Assembly: GCA_020283715.1 (NCBI GenBank) | Contig: JAIQCW010000086.1 | Coordinates: 1-20,231, forward strand | Direction of reading: 5' to 3' | Source: Cytauxzoon felis | Lineage: Eukaryota > Apicomplexa > Aconoidasida > Piroplasmida > Theileriidae | DNA length: 20,231 nucleotides | In this document: in pieces, positions 4,301 through 17,631 of the stretch | How the letters are laid out: each line of letters begins with the position of its first letter | Position numbering within the stretch: the first letter of the stretch is position 1 | Notes under the pieces: generated by a model | Databases searched by the model: none | Told to the model about the DNA's origin: nothing | What the model saw: the letters and a program-made list of their open reading frames with translations, nothing else | Position numbers and translations under genes: made by a program

Positions 4301-6112
4301 ATGGACCGTTGGGAAATACCATCATGTAGCGTTTGTTATGAACGTCTATTATCAAATTTATGTGTACTTCCTAGATGTGGTCATATATATCATGAAAATT
4401 GGTATGTGTATATAGGTGGAATCAAATCCATAATAATTAACAGTTTATATGCATGGATTGAGAGGATAACACTTAAAAAAAATGGATGTCCATTATGTAG
4501 AAAGCCTATAGACCTGGATAATATTATAAAATTGAAATATGATATCACTGAAAAGACTGGTATGTCTATATAACAACATCCAATCATTGACACATTTTAG
4601 CTGTTATAGATGATAATAAAGATGATACAATGAAGACTGTACCAAGTGTATGTGATGTGTTGACAATATTTAACAATAAATGTAGGAGGTACTATTAGAA
4701 TGGAGATTGAAATTGAAGGAGGCATCGACAGATAATTTACAATTAAGAAGTTCATGTTATAAACTAGAAGTATATTTCAGTATTTAAATCATTTATTCAA
4801 TTTCAGTGTGAAAAAAGAAGGCTAGAAGAAGAAGTTAAAAATGAAGTAAAGAATAAAGATGAAGCCATTGAACAAAATAAAGAATTGAAATTAACACAAG
4901 CTGCACAAAAAACAACCATAACCAGACTAAATGAAATTATCACAAAGTTAAAAGCACAAAAAAATAAATTAAAATCTGTTAATAACTAGTATGTTGAAAG
5001 CTATAAACACGTTCCATCAATGATGACCAAAAGGTGAAATAACAAAACTAATACAATTCTAATCAACACTCCACCTGAGGTCCAATCTAACTTCTCCTTG
5101 CCACTCGCCGTTCCACCTTAGGTTACAACCTTGACTTCCTCTTGCAGAGAGCTTCCTTATCTACTTCCCCCTCCGCTTCCTTGAGATCAGCTACGGGTAT
5201 TCCACTTGAGGTCTCCACCTGAGGTCAATAATTACTAATTTCACTAACATCACTTTTACCTCTAAATTTGACGAAATTCATCATTTCTGGGGAAACTCAT
5301 GAAGATAACTCTATGACTATTGCATGAAATTCTGATATCAATACTTCATTCAACAGGACTTTGATGATTGTATCTATTTTCATCATCCTCACTTCATTCC
5401 AATTTATATTCATTCAGATATCCCTTCAAACATGGATTCCGTCACCTTAGACGTATCTTGCCGAGATTACAAATATAACCTCAAGTGGACCTGGAAGCGA
5501 TCCATGGGAGCTGGAAGGGGAAGTAAATAAAAGAGCTGACGGCAGGATGGACCTCAGGTGGAGAGTTTCTCTGTCGGTGTTTTTTTTAATCTTGTTTATA
5601 TTATATTATACTTTAGTCTTGAGAGTAATGATAAGTCTAATATATCATCGGATAATATGAATGTAATATTCAAATCGGTATGTTTGGATTTATTTGAGAT
5701 ATAATATGATATGGATTAGTTGACAAATAATGAGAAGATTTTATTATTGAATAATCGCATAATAGAATTAGAGCAGTATGTTTTGGATTATAAATTAATA
5801 TTATTTTTAAGGATAAATAAAACTCTTGCGGATTTAAGAGATAATTGGAAAAAGAAATGTGATTCAATAAATCAAGATTATTTAACAATTGAAAGGTAAT
5901 AATTTAATTTATTTTTCATATCATTTAATTTCTATAGAGAATATAAAAACTTATTAACACTATATAATTCAAAATATGGTGCTATAGATAATGTAGTTAA
6001 TAAATCACCCAATATTTTATTAAAAAGTAGTAATAAAATACCTACATTTATTACAGATTTAGTTACATCACCACCAAAAATTGATAAAAAAAAGACAAAA
6101 AATTACTATTGA
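4301..6112 (+). CDS. TRAIP-like RING-H2 / coiled-coil E3 ligase
   Basis: Eight exons: 4301-4401, 4444-4559, 4601-4647, 4686-4769, 4807-4988, 5617-5677, 5720-5895 and 5938-6112. The result is 313 residues with all phases kept. The first splice restores Cys34 and completes a RING-H2: C9-C12, C26-H28, H31-C34, C49-C52, with a conserved Trp38. A long charged coiled coil follows (around EKRRLEEEVKNE and later IIELEQYV), then a Lys/Ser/Pro-rich tail. RING plus coiled coil is the architecture of TRAIP, a ubiquitin ligase acting on stalled replisomes and DNA crosslinks in animals; that function is inferred here. Intron 5 (4989-5616, 628 nt) holds two repeat blocks and a 255-bp element; the other introns are 37-42 nt. 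The frame closes at 6110-6112 just after an A8 run; a likely lost tail continues in another frame (see 6092-6227). The RING is sure, the TRAIP name less so. Confidence 0.75.
5068..5222. repeat. GC-rich modular repeat block in a TRAIP-like intron
   Basis: The block contains CCACCTGAGGTCCAATC, CCACTCGCCGTTCCACC, a CTTGCAGAGAGC variant, the CTCCGCTTCCTTGAGATCAG module and closing CCACTTGAGGT and CCACCTGAGGTC cores. It lies wholly within the intron 4989-5616 and directly abuts the 255-bp element. Confidence 0.85.
5223..5478 (-). mobile_element. ~255-bp dispersed element, copy 1
   Basis: Read on the minus strand, this stretch aligns by eye along its whole length with 16964-17226 on the plus strand. 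Shared blocks include CCACTTGAGGTTATA at one end, ATCCATGTTTG/ACCATGTTTG, AATGAAGTATTGA, and GTTTCCCCAGAAATGATGAA near the other end, and both copies are flanked by the GC-rich modules. Identity looks like roughly 70-80%, with small indels. No convincing conserved reading frame spans both copies, so a non-autonomous element or an old duplicated fragment is more likely than a gene. It sits in intron 5 of the TRAIP-like gene. Confidence 0.7.
5471..5572. repeat. GC-rich modular repeat block (other side of element copy 1)
   Basis: The block runs from CCTCAAGTGGACCTGG through CTGGAAGCGATCCATGGGAG and GAGCTGACGGCAGGA to an ACCTCAGGTGG core. It is the reverse-oriented partner of the block at 5068-5222, so the 255-bp element is bracketed by inverted modules. 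Confidence 0.85.
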
Positions 6113-8803: not shown

Positions 8804-11800
8804 TTACACATTAAAATAACGATATGCTGTAGCCATTATAGCAGAACCTGGTACTATCTTAAATAAACGTGGACCTATACCTATAAAAAATCCTTTCATA
8901 CCATATGTCTTCATTATTCTATTATATTCATACTTTAAAGATGTATTACTAGAACTCGACATACTACCCTATAAAAATCATATTTTATTATAAATATTAA
9001 ATATAACATATAACCTAACTCATATATTAATATATACAATAAACAATACCATATAATCATATATGCACATCAATCTTATCAACTACTAATAACCATAATA
9101 TCAAACCATGCCTTCCACCTCCACCCTAGGTTACAATCCACCTCTTCTTCCACTCGCCGTTCCACCGTAGGTCCTGCCGTCAGCTCTTCTATTTACTTCC
9201 CCTTCCAGCTCCCGTAGATCGCTTCCAGGTATTCCACCTGAGGTTACATCTACTATACTAGAGGTTTCGTTCTTCCGGGTTGACACTCTTTGTTCCTCCG
9301 GGTAGATCTCCTGTTCTTAGGGGTTAACACCCTTCGTTCTTCCGGGTTAACTTCGCCACGATCTCTGGGAGTGGCTCTACTCTTTAGAGATGGTAAATAG
9401 AAGAGGCTCCACGCCTAGTGGAAGAGAGTTGGATTGGACCTCGGTGGTAGAGCTGTCTGCAAGACCAACGGTGGAGGTAACCTCAGGTGGAACGCCTAAT
9501 GGAAGGAGAGTTGGATTAGACCTCTGGTGTAGTTGTACTTGATTGAGTTTCGTGTGGTGTGGTTATGTTTGTATGATAAATTTACCTGTATATTGGTTTT
9601 GATGATATCGAATGGTTGTGAGATAATGGTTGCGATGATTGATGAGACTGAACCAGTTAAAAATGGTAACAAAATTTTATCTACATTTGATGTTATGCGA
9701 TTATTATAATACTTCTCCCTATAAATATTAATATTTATATCAATTATATATTTCAACATATAATATTTCTACCCTTTATGATAATCTTATATTACACTCA
9801 AGGTCTAATCATGTCTCTCCATCCTGCCGTCAGCTCTCCACCTGAGGTTCAATCCACCTCTCTTCCACTGGCCGTGGAGGCCTTCTCTATTTACTTCCCC
9901 CTCCGCTTCCCTGAGATCAGCTACGGGTTCTACCTGAGGTCCAATCACTATACTTCAGCCACGATCTCTGGGAGTGGCTCTACTCTTTAGAGATAGGTAA
10001 TTGGAAGAGCTGACGGCAGGACGACCTCAGATGGAACGACGACTGGAAGAAGAGTTGGATTGGACCTCGGTGGAATAGCTGTCTGCAAGACAAGGATTTG
10101 ACCTCGAGTGTAATATAAGGTTATGAAATGGATAGGATTAAAGAGTTAGGAGTATGAGATGGAGGGTGTTAAATGTTTATGATATATCATTGTGGATGAA
10201 TTGGGAGAAAATTCCTTTATATATTTTCCATGCGATGAAAATTCTACCATCTTGGGGATTTGGTTGATTATAATAAGAATAATATCATATATATATAATA
10301 TGGGACAAAGGGTAAATGTGTACAGTGCCAATTTTTACGCTTTTTTTCCCATTGATCACCTGGACCATATTCAGTTTGAATTGCACCATCTATAATATCC
10401 AACAAGGCTATGAAGAAGAGGTATAAAACTACAAGCCAAGGCTAGTGGTGTAGCAGCTTCAAGTTTAGTTTCACCATCATGCTTGTAATAGTACAGTATA
10501 AACACAGCAATGACACTTGATATTGCAATACCTCCGAATACAATTCATAATTCCATTCCACTAGGCGTGGAGCCTCTTCTATTTACTTCCCCCTCCGCTT
10601 CCCTGAGATCAGCTGCGGGTAATAAAATGATACAATAATGTTTGCCCTTATTATATTATAAACATTCTGTTGAGTATAACTACCAACAACTGGTTCACCT
10701 TCAACTTTAGGGACATCCGTTGCAGTTGTAGTTTTTATGTGATCACCATTAGTTAGACCAGAATCAAGAAGATGAGCATTAGCATTAATAGTATTACCTT
10801 CTTGTTGCCAAGTACTACCAAATCTATAATTCTGGGCAGAGGTAGACCCAATGTTTTTATATTTATATCTAAAGCTACCCGAAGTAATCCGCTTTTTAAG
10901 TGTATTCTTATCGTTATAATTTCCAGAGATTAGGCATGTGAAGATGGGAATTAATCCGAGAATGGAGAATATTATACCAATGAATATAGAAGAGTAAGGG
11001 GATTCCGTATTCCATACAACGTGTAACCAAAGGAATATGCTGGAAAGTGATATACCCGCCACAATAGTTGAAGTCATCACAGAAGGTGACATGATAGTAT
11101 CCTCCCACGGTTTACCAGGTTTAGTCCTTGTATCCCAAACATTATTAACTTTCCCTACATCATCTGTTAATTTATTGGCTAACGCAACCTTTCTATTATA
11201 TTTATCACCCTCAACAGAAACTTCATTGAAGTCTTGACCTTTAACAATTGGAGTGCCGTCAGTAGATTTTACATGAGTCTTAATATTTGGATTAGTAGGA
11301 TTATTAGCAGCTTCACCAGTACCATCGGATGGATCATCTGTTCCGTATGTGTATGATTTTCCTGTCGTTGGTTGCCAATTTTTATTATTAGCAGCGTCAA
11401 AGATGATAGGTAATGCCCATCCTTCATATTTCGGTTCCAATATATTCCAACATTGATCAATGGTCCATAGTATAATGGATTATAATTAAACTTTGATAAT
11501 ATTATCTTCAGCTATTACCTCTGTTTTATCACTTATATTAACAGTAGTTTTAACTCGTAGTTGAGGTGGAGTGTTATTATTCGCTGTCTTAAAATGGTTA
11601 CCAGTAGTAACATGCCTTGCTTCAATTGTAAGTCTATTACTAATTTCAGTACCACCACTATCTTGTTTAATAGTGCCTCTATCTTTACTTTCGTATAAAG
11701 TCATGACATTGGGTGAAGTGGTAAAGTATTCAAAATTTTCATTAGTTATGTTGATCTCCTTAAGCTTCATCTTATCTTGGCCATTAGCACGTAGAAGTGT

Positions 11801-14800
11801 AGAGATGATAGATGTTGAAGTTAAGATAGAGAATGATAGACCTATAATAATTATCACCCCATTTTTATTAATTATTATGGTGATAATTAACCCCATAATG
11901 AATAATAAACCCAAAATTCCCCCAACTACAGTTAATGTTATAACAGGTACATTAAATGGTTCTTCTCTCCATAATTTTTTCGGATCACTCTTCAAAGTAT
12001 CCTTCCAATACGTTTCAAGTTTCTTTGCAACACCATTCTCTCTATGATTAAGTTTCTTTTCAAGTTCTGTATTTATGGCATCTATCCTATCACTTTTATC
12101 TTTAGCAGCATCAACAGTTTTAAGATTAGTATTATTTCTACTACTTTGACCAGGTTGGTCGTCCCAGGTATATGTTTTTCCTTCCGGATTTGTAACGCTT
12201 TGATTATTGGCGGCACTAAAAATTCCTTGAATTAAAAAAATCTTATATTCTGGATCCAATATATTCCAACATTTGTCAATAACGTGAGCCCAATTGAATA
12301 AATGACCAGCTGTATCTTTATTAGCCTCCTTATCAGGATTATTAACTTGTGGGACATGACTTTTATCTGGATATTTATACCACCTTCTATTTGGTCCAAA
12401 TACGTAGGCCGTGTTTGTCTTAGGATAATAATCAATATCCAAAAAGAAGGGAGGAGTACACAACTACAATCTCTGGCTCCCTCTGTAGCAGCTCCTTGAC
12501 CTTGGAGTACAAACACGGCTATGGCGCTTGATATTGCAATTCCTGCGAAGGTAAGGGCTGATGTAGATACGATGAAAGTAAATAGAAACAGAGGAGCTGC
12601 GAGAGATTGTTGCGCCTTGTTGTAAAGTACAATAGAAAATATCAGGACGAAGAATAGAACCAACAAAAGACAACCTAAACCTATGGCTGCAACAAAATTA
12701 CATCTAACTAAATCCTCAATTGTACTAACTGTATGTTGAGTAGCAGTAGGGCTATACTCTTCATTATTTTGATGATCACCAATAGTACTTTGTGTACTTT
12801 TAAGTTTGATTTCTGCAGTGTTAAAGGCAACCTTTTCGCCGTGATTTGCAATTAGGACAGCGGAGAATAAAGGAGTTATAGATGCGATTGCAAAGGTTAC
12901 ACTAACATATGCTGTGATATCTTTAAAATCAACCAATTCATGAGTATTCATTGTTAGACATAGAAGAATAACATCCATTAATATTAATATCCCTTGCAAA
13001 CTAAATACAACTAAAGCTACAATGCCAACATCTTTAACATCTTTAGTTGCTTCATCTTCCCAATCTCCAATAGCCTCTCCAAGTCTCTTGCCAACTCCTA
13101 CGTTCCCATCATTGAGTCTATTAGCTATGGCCGCACATTTAGTAAAATTCAGCTCTTTATCAGCAGCTCCAGGATTAAGAGAATTGCCATCAGTACTCTT
13201 CAATATATCATTTATTTCATCTCTGTTTGCTGCTCTAAGAATCCCTTCCATTTTAAAATCCAAAAAAGTCGGATATAATATATTCCAACATTGATCAACA
13301 GTCCATAGGATGGAATGATGAATACCCACGTAAGATGCCACCATTTATGATCATTAGTTCTCTTCGGGGGACCACTATCGTCATACCATTTACCATTTGG
13401 TCCTATTACAGTCATACCATCCTTCCATTCAATATCCAATAGCGAAATAATATTAACCTTTTCTAGATCTTCTGTATGAGCGTCAATACCGGTACCTGAT
13501 GAAACTTCCACCCTGGGTTTTGCATTGCCATCAATATAAAAGTGATTTTTAGAGGTAGTAAGAGTGTTAGCAGCGACAGTTCGTTCACCTTCTTCACCTT
13601 GTTCAATAGTTGAATCAGTATGAGTATTATTTTGTAACTTTAGCTTCTTTCCCGTATATTTAAATGTGATTCCACCAAATGTCATTGCATTAAGTTTAAC
13701 CTTGTCATGTTCATTAGCTATTGTAATACAAAATAATATCGATGTAATGGCAAGTATAGAGAATAAGATGCCGATGAACACAGATGTTTCCGATGGATCC
13801 TCATCAAGTGTCATAATTAACCGCATGAGTGTACCGAGGAAAGATGTTCCAGCCATTTCAACAGATATTATCAGAGGTGTAATAATAGGATCTTCAGTAA
13901 TTTTACCACTAGCGTCACCAAGTTTTCCTTTAACTTTTTCACCAAGATAACTGGCTACAGCCCACCATCTATCGGAAGTATCGTCAGCTTCCCGAACTCT
14001 TTTACTATTCTCAGGAATAGTATAACCATTTCCACCATCACTAGCCCTATTCGTGTCGCTACTATATGTATACTCAGAAGGACCATTACTACCACTATCA
14101 GTCGTCAACTTCTTTAGATTACCCACATCTCCATTATTAGCCGCAGCCAAATCACCCCGAATTTTAAATCCAAAGTAAGTCGGCTCCAATATATTCCAGC
14201 ATTGACGAATTGAATATAATTAATAAATCCATTCCTTTCCATCCTTTATAGTATAATCCTCATAAATAACTCTGGTAGCAAGATCAACTTGTACCATTTC
14301 CCTCTATAATTCATCCCTCAAGATATATCCATCTCTCATCTCCATAAATAGATTAAAGTAATAAACAAACTTTATATTATTGTAGAATAGTTCATTCATA
14401 GGCCAATAAATTGTAGAAAATGGTATATCCCTAATGAGTGTAGGATATGTTCCTTTATATAATGTGATTAATCCTTGCGTTTTAGCGATATTTAATAATT
14501 GAGAAAATGTAATATATGAGAGATTAGCTTGAGTATATGTTCTCATATAATCTAATGGTTGTATTAATAAAAGTGATAATAATCTTGATAATAAACTAGA
14601 TGTAGGTGAATTTATATGTAATTTAAGAGTATCATATGAATAAAAAAATAATGTTTGACCAAATACAGTTATACTTAATGACCAATTAATACCTAATAAT
14701 ATAATATATTAATTATATTACAATAAATAAATACCAGTCCAAAAACTATGTACCCCTTTATTATTATATAAATGTCTAATAACATCAAATGATGTCATAC

Positions 14801-14998: not shown

Positions 14999-15259
14999 TA
15001 TTAAATTCAATATACAACCAAACCTTTTATTATTCTAGAATACCATATAGTATCAATCTATATAGATATACATGGGGATATAAAATTATAATATTTTACT
15101 TGAATTAAATATAATTATAAATTTAATATGTAATCTATTATTTAAATTTAAATTTCATTTCTATTAATGTGTAATTTACTCAGTTTAACCTAATTTTTAT
15201 ACCACTTCAACCAAACACTACCACTACACAACTCTCCTATAATAATCTCTATATATGAT
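14999..15259. promoter_or_regulatory. Shared intergenic region of carrier and CDK11-like genes
   Basis: About 260 bp, nearly pure A/T with long A/T-only stretches, separate the divergent start codons at 14998 and 15260. It contains no repeat block. Both promoters should lie here; no defined motif could be recognised. Confidence 0.4.
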
Positions 15260-16873
15260 ATGAATAGACATAATAAAGATAGATATTCAACATCACGTAG
15301 AGATTTAAGGAGAAGATACTCACCAAATTATAAAAAATATGATGAACATTATAGAGAAGCTGAAGATCCATCATATAATACAAAAGATTATAGAAATGAT
15401 TACACACGATACAATAATGAAAGATCATATGATAAATATAAAAACTATTATCAAAGATCATATAAAAGAAATCGATGGGATAACTCACCACCTCATACAA
15501 ACATAATCTATAAAAACTCGTCTACCAGTAAATCAAATACTCAACATGAGGTCCGTCCTGCCGTCAGCTCTTCCAATTACCTCTCTCTAAAGAGTAATGC
15601 CACTCCCGGAGATCGTGGCGAAGAATCCGAGACGATCCATGGGAGTCGAGGTGAGATAAATAGAGAGACAACCACGGCGAGTGGAATGACGACTAATACT
15701 CGACCTCAAGTGGAGCCCGCAGCTGATCTCAGGGAAGCGGAGGGGGAAGTAAATAAGGAAGCTGTCTGCAAGATGACCTCAAGTGGAGAATCTCCATGCA
15801 ATGGAACACAAGGTGATGAAGGTGGTGATGCAACCTCAGGTGTAAATGAGGTTTATTATAAATCGTATGATATATGTATGAATTCTATATCAATGAAGTG
15901 TAGATATGGTTATTTATCATGTAGGGATGTAGAGAATTATAAATGTTTGAATAAGATATCGGAGGGTACATATGGTACTGTATATAGAGCTATGGATCGT
16001 GAGAGTGGTGAGATTGTAGCATTGAAGCATATAAAATATCATGATATGCAATGGAAGGAAGGATTTCCTATAACATATTTAAGAGAGATATCGATATTAT
16101 TAGAATTGAATCATCCTAATATATTACGTGTTAAAGAGATTGTAACAAATATGAAGAGAGATAAATATTATATGGTAATGGAATATATAGAACATGAATT
16201 AAAGACATTATTAGAAGATAAAAAACCCGACTTTACATTATCAGAAAGGAAATGTTTATTAAAACAATTATTAGAGGGTACAAAATATTTACATGATAAT
16301 TGGGTAATGCATAGAGATTTAAAAACTACAAATATATTATATAATAATAAAGGTATATTAAAAATATGTGATTTTGGTATGGCTAGACGTTATGGTAATC
16401 CATTAAAAAATTATACACATAATGTTGTTACACATTGGTATAGAGCACCAGAATTATTTTTAGGTGAATTAAAATATTCTGAAAAAACTGATATTTGGTC
16501 TATTGGTTGTATATTTGCTGAAATTATATTAGGTAAACCATTATTCCCTGGTATTAATGATAATGATACACTTGATAAAATATTTAAATTATGTGGATCA
16601 CCTAATATACGTAATTGGCCCAATTTTATTAATCTACCCAATATTATTAATAATAAATTTATATTCAATACTAATTATAAACCTAATTTTAATACATTGT
16701 TCAAATCTAATATCATCAATGATCTAGTCAATTCCAATTCATATATGTCCAATCAAGGATTAGATCTACTCACCAAAATGCTCACACTCGACCCCAATCA
16801 AAGAATCTCTGCAAAAGATGCACTACTACACCCATATCTCACACAGGTTCGTAATTATATAACGAAAATATAA
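15260..16873 (+). CDS. CDK11 (PITSLRE)-type cyclin-dependent kinase
   Basis: A single open frame of 537 codons. Residues 1-95 are Arg/Tyr/Ser-rich like the RS-type heads of CDK11 kinases. Residues about 97-196 are encoded by the GC-rich repeat. The kinase domain starts with CRDVENYKCLNKISEGTYG (Gly-loop near 233-240) and has the EGFPITYLRE helix corresponding to PITSLRE, catalytic HRDLK with Asp353, DFG at 371-373, an activation segment with the THNVVTHWYRAPE motif, DIWSIGCIFAE and the C-lobe to HPYL. The CRDVE...KCL lead-in and YGNPLKNYT segment are specific to CDK11 rather than CDK1/2. CDK11 acts in splicing and transcription with cyclin L in other eukaryotes; in Theileria such kinases are called CRKs. 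The 300-nt repeat region could be translated or removed as a 3n GT-AG intron (15551-15850). All catalytic residues are present. Confidence 0.88.
   Translation: MNRHNKDRYSTSRRDLRRRYSPNYKKYDEHYREAEDPSYNTKDYRNDYTRYNNERSYDKYKNYYQRSYKRNRWDNSPPHTNIIYKNSSTSKSNTQHEVRPAVSSSNYLSLKSNATPGDRGEESETIHGSRGEINRETTTASGMTTNTRPQVEPAADLREAEGEVNKEAVCKMTSSGESPCNGTQGDEGGDATSGVNEVYYKSYDICMNSISMKCRYGYLSCRDVENYKCLNKISEGTYGTVYRAMDRESGEIVALKHIKYHDMQWKEGFPITYLREISILLELNHPNILRVKEIVTNMKRDKYYMVMEYIEHELKTLLEDKKPDFTLSERKCLLKQLLEGTKYLHDNWVMHRDLKTTNILYNNKGILKICDFGMARRYGNPLKNYTHNVVTHWYRAPELFLGELKYSEKTDIWSIGCIFAEIILGKPLFPGINDNDTLDKIFKLCGSPNIRNWPNFINLPNIINNKFIFNTNYKPNFNTLFKSNIINDLVNSNSYMSNQGLDLLTKMLTLDPNQRISAKDALLHPYLTQVRNYITKI
15546..15852. 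repeat. GC-rich modular repeat in frame in the CDK11-like gene
   Basis: The block has CTGCCGTCAGCTCTTCC, CTCTAAAGAG with the reversed GCCAC hairpin module, GATCCATGGGAGTCGAGGTG, CCACGGCGAGTGGA, GCAGCTGATCTCAGGGAAGC, AGCTGTCTGCAAGATGACC and an ACCTCAGGTG core. ATGAGGT occurs at 15546-15552 and again at 15846-15852, exactly 300 nt apart. The block has no stop in the kinase frame. The left ATGAGGT may be a degenerate copy of the repeat's own CCTGAGGT core rather than a target duplication. Confidence 0.85.
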
Positions 16874-16892
16874 TCCTACTCTTATACACATC

Positions 16893-16976
16893 TTCTTCCA
16901 CTAGGCGTGGCGCCTCTTTTATTTACATCCCCTTCCAGCTCCCGGAGATCGCTTCCAGGTATTCCACTTGAGGTTA
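16893..16976. repeat. GC-rich modular repeat block before element copy 2
   Basis: TTCCACTAGGCGTGGCGCC, CTTTTATTTAC, CTTCCAGCTCCCGGAGATCG and CCACTTGAGGTTATA appear in order shortly after the kinase stop codon. The last core overlaps the left end of the 255-bp element. Confidence 0.85.
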
Positions 16977-17226
16977 TAAACCTAATCTCGACGAGATATG
17001 ACTAAAGTGATGGAAACCATGTTTGTTCGGATATCTCAATGAATACAATACGGAATTAAATGAGGATGAGTATATTAAATAGAATCATCAAATTCCTTTT
17101 CAATGAAGTATTGAGATTTATATTTCATTCAATAGTAATTTCACAATCTTCAGTAGTTTCCCCAGAAATGATGAAATTCCTTCAAATTTCAGAGGCAAAA
17201 ATGAAACTAATGATTGGACCTCGAGT
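16964..17226 (+). mobile_element. ~255-bp dispersed element, copy 2
   Basis: This is the plus-strand copy of the sequence at 5223-5478 (there reversed). Both run from CCACTTGAGGTTATA through ATCTCG..GA, CATGTTTG, ATATCT.AATGAATA, GAGGATGA, AATCATCAAA, AATGAAGTATTGA and GTTTCCCCAGAAATGATGAA to a CCTC(A/G)(G/A)GTGG core. Here it lies between genes, with a GC-rich block on each side just as in copy 1. An 83-codon frame from 17060 is not kept in copy 1. Confidence 0.7.
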
Positions 17227-17389
17227 GGAACCCGAGAACGATCTCTGGGAGTTTGAGGGGGAATTAAATAGAAGATGCCACCACGGCTGTGGAAAAGAGT
17301 GTTGGATTTGACCTCAGGTGGAGAGCAGCTCATTTGTGTATATTTTTATATAAATGTGATATAGGAGAGACCTCGTACTCAGGTGGTAG
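17214..17389. repeat. GC-rich modular repeat block after element copy 2
   Basis: GGACCTCGAGTGGA, CGATCTCTGGGAGT, GAATTAAATAGAAGATG, CCACGGCTGTGGAAAAGAGT and GACCTCAGGTGGAGAGC are followed, after a short AT-rich gap, by a degenerate GACCTCGTACTCAGGTGGT at 17371-17389. The block ends only a few bases before the start codon of the small gene at 17395. Confidence 0.75.
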
Positions 17390-17394
17390 AATTG

Positions 17395-17631
17395 ATGCCG
17401 ACTGTACCGGATACGAATTGTAAGGGTGAGTTGATATTAATTATGTAATTATTAGTATTATTAGTCCGTAGTAAGCGTCATCAAGATTTGTATAATGAGG
17501 AAGGTGAGTTTGTTACTTTAGTGAATTAATATAATGGTGTAGATCAGGTGTCTAGATTTGGTACAAGAGTTGATCCGGTAAAATTTTTATCAATGATGAA
17601 ACAGACTAAAACAACTACACGAAAATATTAA
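17395..17631 (+). CDS. Small basic protein of unknown family, 52 residues
   Basis: Three exons (17395-17425, 17465-17503 and 17543-17631) join over 39-nt introns with GTGAGT donors and phases 1 and 1. The product is basic, with RSKRHQDLY, then SRFGTRVDPVKFL and a Lys/Thr-rich end. The sharp splice signals and clean phases make it a likely gene, but I do not recognise it. It may be only the 3' part of a longer gene, since the ATG lies right after a repeat core and an acceptor-like ATATAG precedes it at 17374; earlier exons would then lie left of the repeat. It ends about 50 bp before MEMO1 on the same strand. Confidence 0.55.

Follow-up and report, generated by a model that had tools for sequence, protein, structure and literature searches.

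In the apicomplexan Cytauxzoon felis, the gene for a CDK11-type kinase in a window of 20,231 nucleotides (the whole stretch of DNA analysed here, contig JAIQCW010000086.1) carries a repeat block between a putative arginine-rich head and the kinase domain, and this raises the question of whether the block is spliced out, is translated, or does not belong to the gene at all. A preliminary description of the locus had left the choice between an introner and an exonised repeat. The evidence presented below makes it highly probable that the kinase block, one copy of a GC-rich palindromic element dispersed in the C. felis nuclear genome, has been exonised and filtered for frame. The sampled DNA shows a family that is very abundant, is predicted to fold into hairpins and lies, within predicted genes, in one orientation and one frame almost without exception.

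The block is stop-free in the kinase frame, as the preliminary description had stated: this frame (15194-16873) stays open across it for 559 codons, words of the repeat family span 15554-15842 (the repeat mask of the block), and canonical 4-mers cover 75 of its 96 residues with no stops. The CDK11-type assignment was likewise borne out, with CDK11B as the best solved relative (E = 2.1e-97), a Pkinase match in Pfam over residues 228-528 of the translation (E = 2.5e-70), and both a CDK11-like catalytic domain and a C-terminal tail present. The nearest named relatives are the proteins of Theileria orientalis (77% identity), T. equi (76%) and T. annulata (73%), over 57-58% of the query, and in the gene model the 77% identity to the T. 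orientalis protein runs from the kinase domain into exon 3. The repeat segment is absent from all 12 orthologous proteins that were aligned, nine named piroplasms among them. The Theileria and Babesia orthologs start near the kinase domain, and their N-terminus is unrelated to the arginine-rich head and not alignable with it. A search for a homologue of the head found none, and its low coding score lends it no coding support; what ties it to the kinase is the shared open frame.

The three introns predicted in this gene (Table 1) start with GTTCGT or GTGAGT and end with ATAG, TTAG or GTAG. The two short ones, of 39 nt each, start with GTGAGT, end with TTAG and GTAG, and have GC contents of about 0.18 and 0.26, the second value coming from a measurement that omits one base. 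The 300-nt intron proposed in the preliminary description (15551-15850), on the other hand, starts with GTCCGT, ends with TGAG and has a GC content of 0.51. Intron 1 appears to have grown to its present 518 nt, against 39 nt in the other two, through a long-form copy of the repeat; judging by one Babesia protein, which has an intron-like insert at the corresponding site, this intron may be old.

Table 1. Features of the kinase gene and of repeat copies in the window (window positions)
Feature	Position	Strand	Basis
In-frame palindromic element copy, in the canonical frame of the family	15546..15842	+	mask 15554-15842; 0 stops; aligned with 17 other copies
Left ATGAGGT, probably a CTGAGGT-type end belonging to the element	15546..15552	+	other copies carry CTGAGGT there
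Right ATGAGGT, outside the repeat mask, chance match	15846..15852	+	mask, word counts, end-identity test
Non-coding copies, example: blocks 9128-9517 and 9818-10110, with 4 and 2 stops, mixed frames	9128..10110	.	mask, frame scan
Long-form element: GC-rich inverted arms, AT-rich centre of about 230 nt	16884..17326 (approximate ends)	-	mask, alignment
Kinase exon 1: Arg/Tyr-rich head, in-frame repeat, kinase domain	15260..16846	+	open frame, Pkinase, four-exon model of 591 aa
Predicted intron 1 of 518 nt, enlarged by a long-form repeat copy	16847..17364	+	orthologs go from HPYLTQ-type to EKPRTQ-type; 218 of 518 bases in repeat mask
Kinase exon 2 (ERPRTQVVELMPTVPDTNCK)	17365..17425	+	gene model
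Kinase exon 3	17465..17503	+	gene model
Kinase exon 4 (VSRFGTRVDPVKFLSMM...)	17543..17631	+	gene model

The case for an introner had been built on the ends of the block. Two ATGAGGT words do lie exactly 300 nt apart, and a cut at AG/GT does remove a segment of length 3n in phase 0, position 15551 being a codon start. The pair is nevertheless best read as chance: ATGAGGT occurs three times in the window against an expected 3.26, and the left copy coincides with a CTGAGGT-type end in other copies of the repeat, a possibility about which the preliminary description itself had cautioned. A word of at least 7 nt common to both ends was found in 3 of 39 coding copies (mispaired-end control 5.3%, about two expected) and, among non-coding copies no shorter than 150 nt, in 1 of 66 (control 3.8%), in a test weakened by element ends that are not sharply defined. 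A target-site duplication sought at the ends of these 39 coding and 66 non-coding copies was therefore not seen beyond the mispaired control, and duplicated ends of the introner type are not supported, the word occurring at chance frequency and end identity showing no excess over the control. An introner with an ATGAGGT target duplication is accordingly not supported: the frame is kept, the ends are unduplicated, and splice ends and GC content are atypical.

The repeat occurs throughout the window and the genome. The 12-mer CCACCTGAGGTC alone has 2063 occurrences in the 8.6-Mb genome, as against none for its reversed control. From a block similarity search of the genome, in which 40 of 3033 first-look candidates were scored, a sample of 220 kb was assembled, comprising the window and 20 further stretches, each of 10 kb and centred on one of the closest matches to the kinase copy; as these stretches were chosen by their similarity to a coding copy, close and coding copies are over-represented in it. 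Repeat blocks have a GC content of 0.50-0.56 by locus, versus 0.24-0.33 for the remaining DNA of the 220 kb, and cover 16.8% of the sample, which scales by 12-mer density to roughly 11% of the genome. In-frame blocks are mostly 220-420 nt long and modular. Several (L010, L011, L022, L025 and L026) contain extra modules, namely an AT-rich DKKPHN-like one, YPEEQ and SDGSSIMGMMEDG, and the element thus appears to be composite. Rfam gave no match in the window at the gathering score. An origin in a sequenced bacterium, archaeon or virus was considered and set aside, as one 22-nt element word had no exact match in genome contigs, which is a weak test. The repeat is not mentioned in the sections searched of the literature, including PMC6310948, PMC9860807, PMC10058880 and PMC10730637, a scope that excludes the 2013 C. 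felis genome thesis cited in PMC9860807.

The behaviour of copies inside genes was studied on 147 merged blocks (5 of 152, at locus ends, were left out), which were classed by the coding score of their flanks and not of their interior: 23 have coding flanks of one strand on both sides, 33 have coding flanks of some other kind and 91 have none. Every one of the 23 intragenic blocks lies in sense orientation. The canonical frame runs through 22 of them without a stop, and in 21 the flanks on the two sides share a frame, the two whose flanks differ in frame being L011 1185-1435 and L012 4588-4861. The kinase block falls outside these 23, its left flank having a low coding score. Stop-free blocks number 24 of 33 among those with other coding flanks and 28 of 91 among those without coding flanks (15 of 66 for blocks of at least 150 nt), counts that favour the coding class because the canonical words derive from frames that had been selected as open. 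For blocks reaching 150 nt, stops per 100 codons amount to 0.04 in the intragenic class (22 blocks), 0.76 with other coding flanks and 2.31 without any (66 blocks). A count made without canonical words and before merging gave a similar picture, with 31 of 34 blocks between coding flanks reading straight through. Gapped alignments (81 of 183 kept, at least 80 nt) were not used for stop counts, since join words are read in different frames between copies.

The element offers essentially one readable frame. Among the 39 coding copies the canonical frame has no stops, by selection, while the other five frames have 3.2 to 8.8 per 100 codons; each of the other two sense frames is stop-free in none of the 39, and the antisense frames in 3, 4 and 1. 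Insertions and deletions sum to a net multiple of three in 18 of 18 coding alignments that reach 140 nt versus 8 of 15 non-coding ones, and with a threshold of 60 nt in 26 of 32 versus 26 of 55, a contrast helped by the way in which coding copies were picked. In our reading, part of the coding exceptions are join words that are read in two frames, with the main modules keeping theirs. A genome-wide search with the canonical peptide, in which 150 of 3899 candidates were scored and which favours open copies, gave at least 155 matches. Frames of 250 aa or more contain 96 of the 150 matches listed, none of them with a stop; the other 54 lie in frames of up to 220 aa, and seven have stops. As five frames appear two or three times, the 96 correspond to about 90 distinct frames.

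A Pfam scan of nine block-bearing open frames assigned a family to eight of them: Vps16, Aquarius (two frames), asparaginyl-tRNA synthetase (AsnRS), a GAF-domain protein, a Sec7 protein, an ABC1 protein and SBDS. In AsnRS the insert of about 130 residues lies in the catalytic domain, and query residues 140 and 274 meet at a single point of the solved structure 6pqh_A. SBDS has about 140 residues more than its relative, its residues 103 and 264 facing 177 and 196 of 5an9_J, with the second part of this alignment being weak (10 bits). In the Aquarius gene (L012:4588-5149) the frame shifts inside a pair of repeat blocks and the helicase domain is split between two open frames, possibly through a sequencing error, an intron or damage to the gene. 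The Sec7 gene contains two elements 1.2 kb apart (L016:3597-3942 and 4830-5176), which share 347 nt at 98.3% identity, including about 49 nt of host flank outside the mask. Judging from this identity, the pair is a recent local copying event, and its common flank fits copying that carries flanks along.

The most direct information on the fate of an element in a message comes from cf76. When the repeat part of the kinase was used in a protein search, for which only proteins of about 296-941 residues were eligible, two of 114 candidates matched, both of them C. felis Cf76 (723 and 706 residues). Part of the gene was located at L029:1501-3033: the 33-nt cf76 forward primer of PMC3748084 matches once in the genome (33/33), which identifies the organism as C. 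felis, and six of the eight primers sought are present in this 3-kb locus, the remaining two probably lying beyond its end. COX1, sought for the same identification, had no match in this assembly. According to the sections of PMC3748084 on the gene, cf76 is a single exon of 2172 bp that was amplified from cDNA, with the clones sequenced, and DNase treatment and a DNA-free control are reported for this cDNA. The same paper also gives a figure of 962 EST contigs for C. felis, from 454 sequencing. Repeat words lie within two of the primers (fragment 1 reverse and fragment 2 forward). The primer distances on the genome, 720 and 828 bp, equal the sizes in Table 1 of that paper, which are primer-table values; for a gene with one exon, genomic DNA yields an identical product. 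The retention of the element in the cf76 message is supported by published cDNA work.

Cf76 has two element copies, whose starts are close to residues 178 and 573. Between the forms from two isolates the net length difference is 17 residues, with the change lying mostly in and around copy 1 and the frame being kept. By the primers, copy 2 falls in the C-terminal fragment, and copy 1 is common to the other two. In the relevant parts of PMC3748084 the C-terminal fragment is described as highly immunogenic and the other two as giving weaker signals, and a 30-bp tandem polymorphism is reported from the C-terminal region of the gene; the only obvious tandem seen in Cf76 is of 11 residues (33 nt), in copy 2, versus these 30 bp.

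Sequence divergence offers a further view of what is kept after insertion. Of 190 alignments, 32 coding and 55 non-coding passed a threshold of 60 nt, and 18 and 15 one of 140 nt. Divergence from the majority at codon positions 1, 2 and 3 is 0.081, 0.079 and 0.089 in coding and 0.081, 0.086 and 0.077 in non-coding copies for the larger set; with the threshold of 140 nt the values become 0.077, 0.064 and 0.078 (18 coding) and 0.069, 0.090 and 0.057 (15 non-coding), so that divergence is lowest at the second position in coding copies and highest there in non-coding ones. As the codon positions diverge about equally, the frame appears to be kept and the peptide hardly. Strong selection on the peptide was rejected, not being seen in these divergences, and constraint on the peptide itself amounts at most to a hint in the longer alignments, where numbers are small.

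With regard to folding, the mean z against shuffles is -3.8 for coding and -4.1 for non-coding copies, versus -0.33 for non-repeat DNA (14 sequences each), with values below -2 in 9 of 14, 12 of 14 and 0 of 14, respectively; the kinase copy folded as RNA has a z of -2.40. Changes on both sides with pairing kept were found in 3 of 36 predicted pairs, two of these in one mini-stem (8 and 3 of 18 copies), and most other pairs vary little or not at all, and hence are uninformative. A long form is represented by ten copies after length filtering, that in kinase intron 1 aligning with the nine others; it is absent among the 23 intragenic blocks. Inverted arms are present, but the ends differ between copies. 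According to the sections of PMC9141347 on its survey of 64 apicomplexan genomes, class II transposons are absent from the genomes studied, and no transposable elements are recorded in C. felis. A search of the genome for reverse transcriptases gave only two neighbouring matches, in one frame of 1010 aa (G000:C56:73693-74436), which is probably telomerase, a name suggested by inference; a LINE-type reverse transcriptase was rejected as a source of copies on this ground, the sole frame found being taken for telomerase.

The closest parallel known to us in the literature is a bacterial one. The Rickettsia palindromic elements (Ogata et al. 2000, 2002), as summarised in the pertinent section of PMC10969869, are of about 150 bp, with 44 insertions first reported in one genome, and like the C. 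felis repeat they are short palindromic repeats in frame within unrelated genes, which tolerate the extra peptides. In our tests the C. felis element resembled them both in being palindromic and hairpin-folding and in its in-frame insertion into unrelated genes. Unlike them, it is hosted by a eukaryotic nucleus, and it is distinguished by modular blocks mostly of 220-420 nt and a 12-mer present 2063 times. As regards the rickettsial families themselves, the 22-nt element word lacked an exact match in bacterial and archaeal contigs, a comparison limited to exact matching.

MITEs combine inverted repeats and a high copy number with the lack of a gene of their own. The C. felis element likewise has inverted repeats, no gene of its own that could be seen and a high copy number, and its long form has GC-rich inverted arms around an AT-rich centre; unlike MITEs and class II transposons, no target-site duplication was found in its copies. 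Introner elements are dispersed repeats in genes with AG/GT at their ends, whose copies coincide with introns, and in introner-like elements a target-site duplication supplies a splice site. The C. felis repeat is similarly dispersed in genes with AG/GT at its ends, but it is unspliced in the one gene with cDNA evidence (cf76) and the frame is kept. GC-rich hairpins in AT-rich DNA, sometimes in frame, also occur in the mitochondria of fungi and algae as mobile GC clusters and double-hairpin elements. The present element resembles them in these features, with the difference that those sit in organelle genomes.

These observations can be set against three other explanations of the kinase block. 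If copies brought GT-AG ends of their own and were spliced out, the kinase message would be free of the block, and the phase-0 cut of length 3n between AG/GT ends, the AG/GT contained in the CCACCTGAGGTC and GACCTCAGGTGG words in either orientation, and the two of 23 blocks that join flanks of different frames would agree with this. Spliced copies need no frame, though, and there is no reason for them to be stop-free, yet stops are absent from 22 of 23 and the frame is preserved in 21 of 23; the ends are not duplicated, splice ends and GC content are unlike those of the gene's predicted introns, and the cf76 element is present in cDNA, all of which renders splicing very unlikely. Of the two possibilities raised in the preliminary description, the exonised repeat is thus favoured by the 23 of 23 copies in sense, the 21 of 23 in one frame and the cDNA-amplified, single-exon cf76, and the introner is disfavoured by ends, splice sites and GC content. 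It is less improbable, but still unlikely, that the block is intergenic, with the head and the kinase belonging to two genes and the frame being open through the repeat by chance. The head has a low coding score and no homologue found, the Theileria and Babesia orthologs start near the kinase domain with an unrelated N-terminus, and among non-coding blocks of 150 nt or more, 15 of 66 have a best frame without stops; against this, a single stop-free frame of 559 codons is common to head, block and kinase, in a region where the upstream DNA has about 22% GC and a stop is expected, by our own arithmetic, about every 11 codons.

The repeat peptide might alternatively be a selected module, for example a decoy epitope shared by many parasite proteins. 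One copy indeed lies in the C-terminal Cf76 fragment reported as highly immunogenic in that part of PMC3748084, and the low divergence of the second codon position in coding copies of at least 140 nt is a possible hint of weak constraint. The identified host proteins, however, are mostly internal housekeeping ones, codon positions diverge about alike in the set of at least 60 nt, and the epitopes of Cf76 are not mapped to the element, and we regard such a module as quite improbable. Under the preferred reading, that of an exonised, frame-filtered element, copies would be placed widely across the genome, and those landing in coding sequence would persist only if they lie in sense, with their open frame in register, and fall in a tolerant loop, after which mainly the frame would be guarded while the peptide drifts. 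The kinase copy would be transcribed and left unspliced, its translation giving a hydrophilic linker of some 100 residues that connects the arginine-rich head with the kinase domain. As a conjecture, the spread would have occurred without a transposase or LINE-type enzyme, perhaps by hairpin-primed template switching or gene conversion.

A broader proposal, which we advance tentatively and hold at somewhat below an even chance, is that a palindromic element spreading by hairpin-assisted copying, with no transposase or LINE-type enzyme, has coding sequence as a habitat. Its one readable frame would render it harmless and place it in frame in some 90 or more open frames, including those of housekeeping enzymes, and many proteins, including a vaccine-candidate antigen, would now display the same peptide. 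Rickettsia already provides an instance of in-frame palindromic selfish DNA, and a dense case in a eukaryotic nucleus would make the tolerance of proteins to repeated large inserts testable. Cf76 is a vaccine candidate that was tested with cat sera, and given its two element copies and the occurrence of the same peptide family in many other open frames, antibody signals against it may be non-specific. Gene predictions that excise such blocks as introns, or that split genes at them, would be wrong. Elsewhere in the window, four adjacent related open frames on the minus strand (10583-14219), which match no Pfam family above the cut-off, have a CWNIL-type motif in common and apparent membrane segments.
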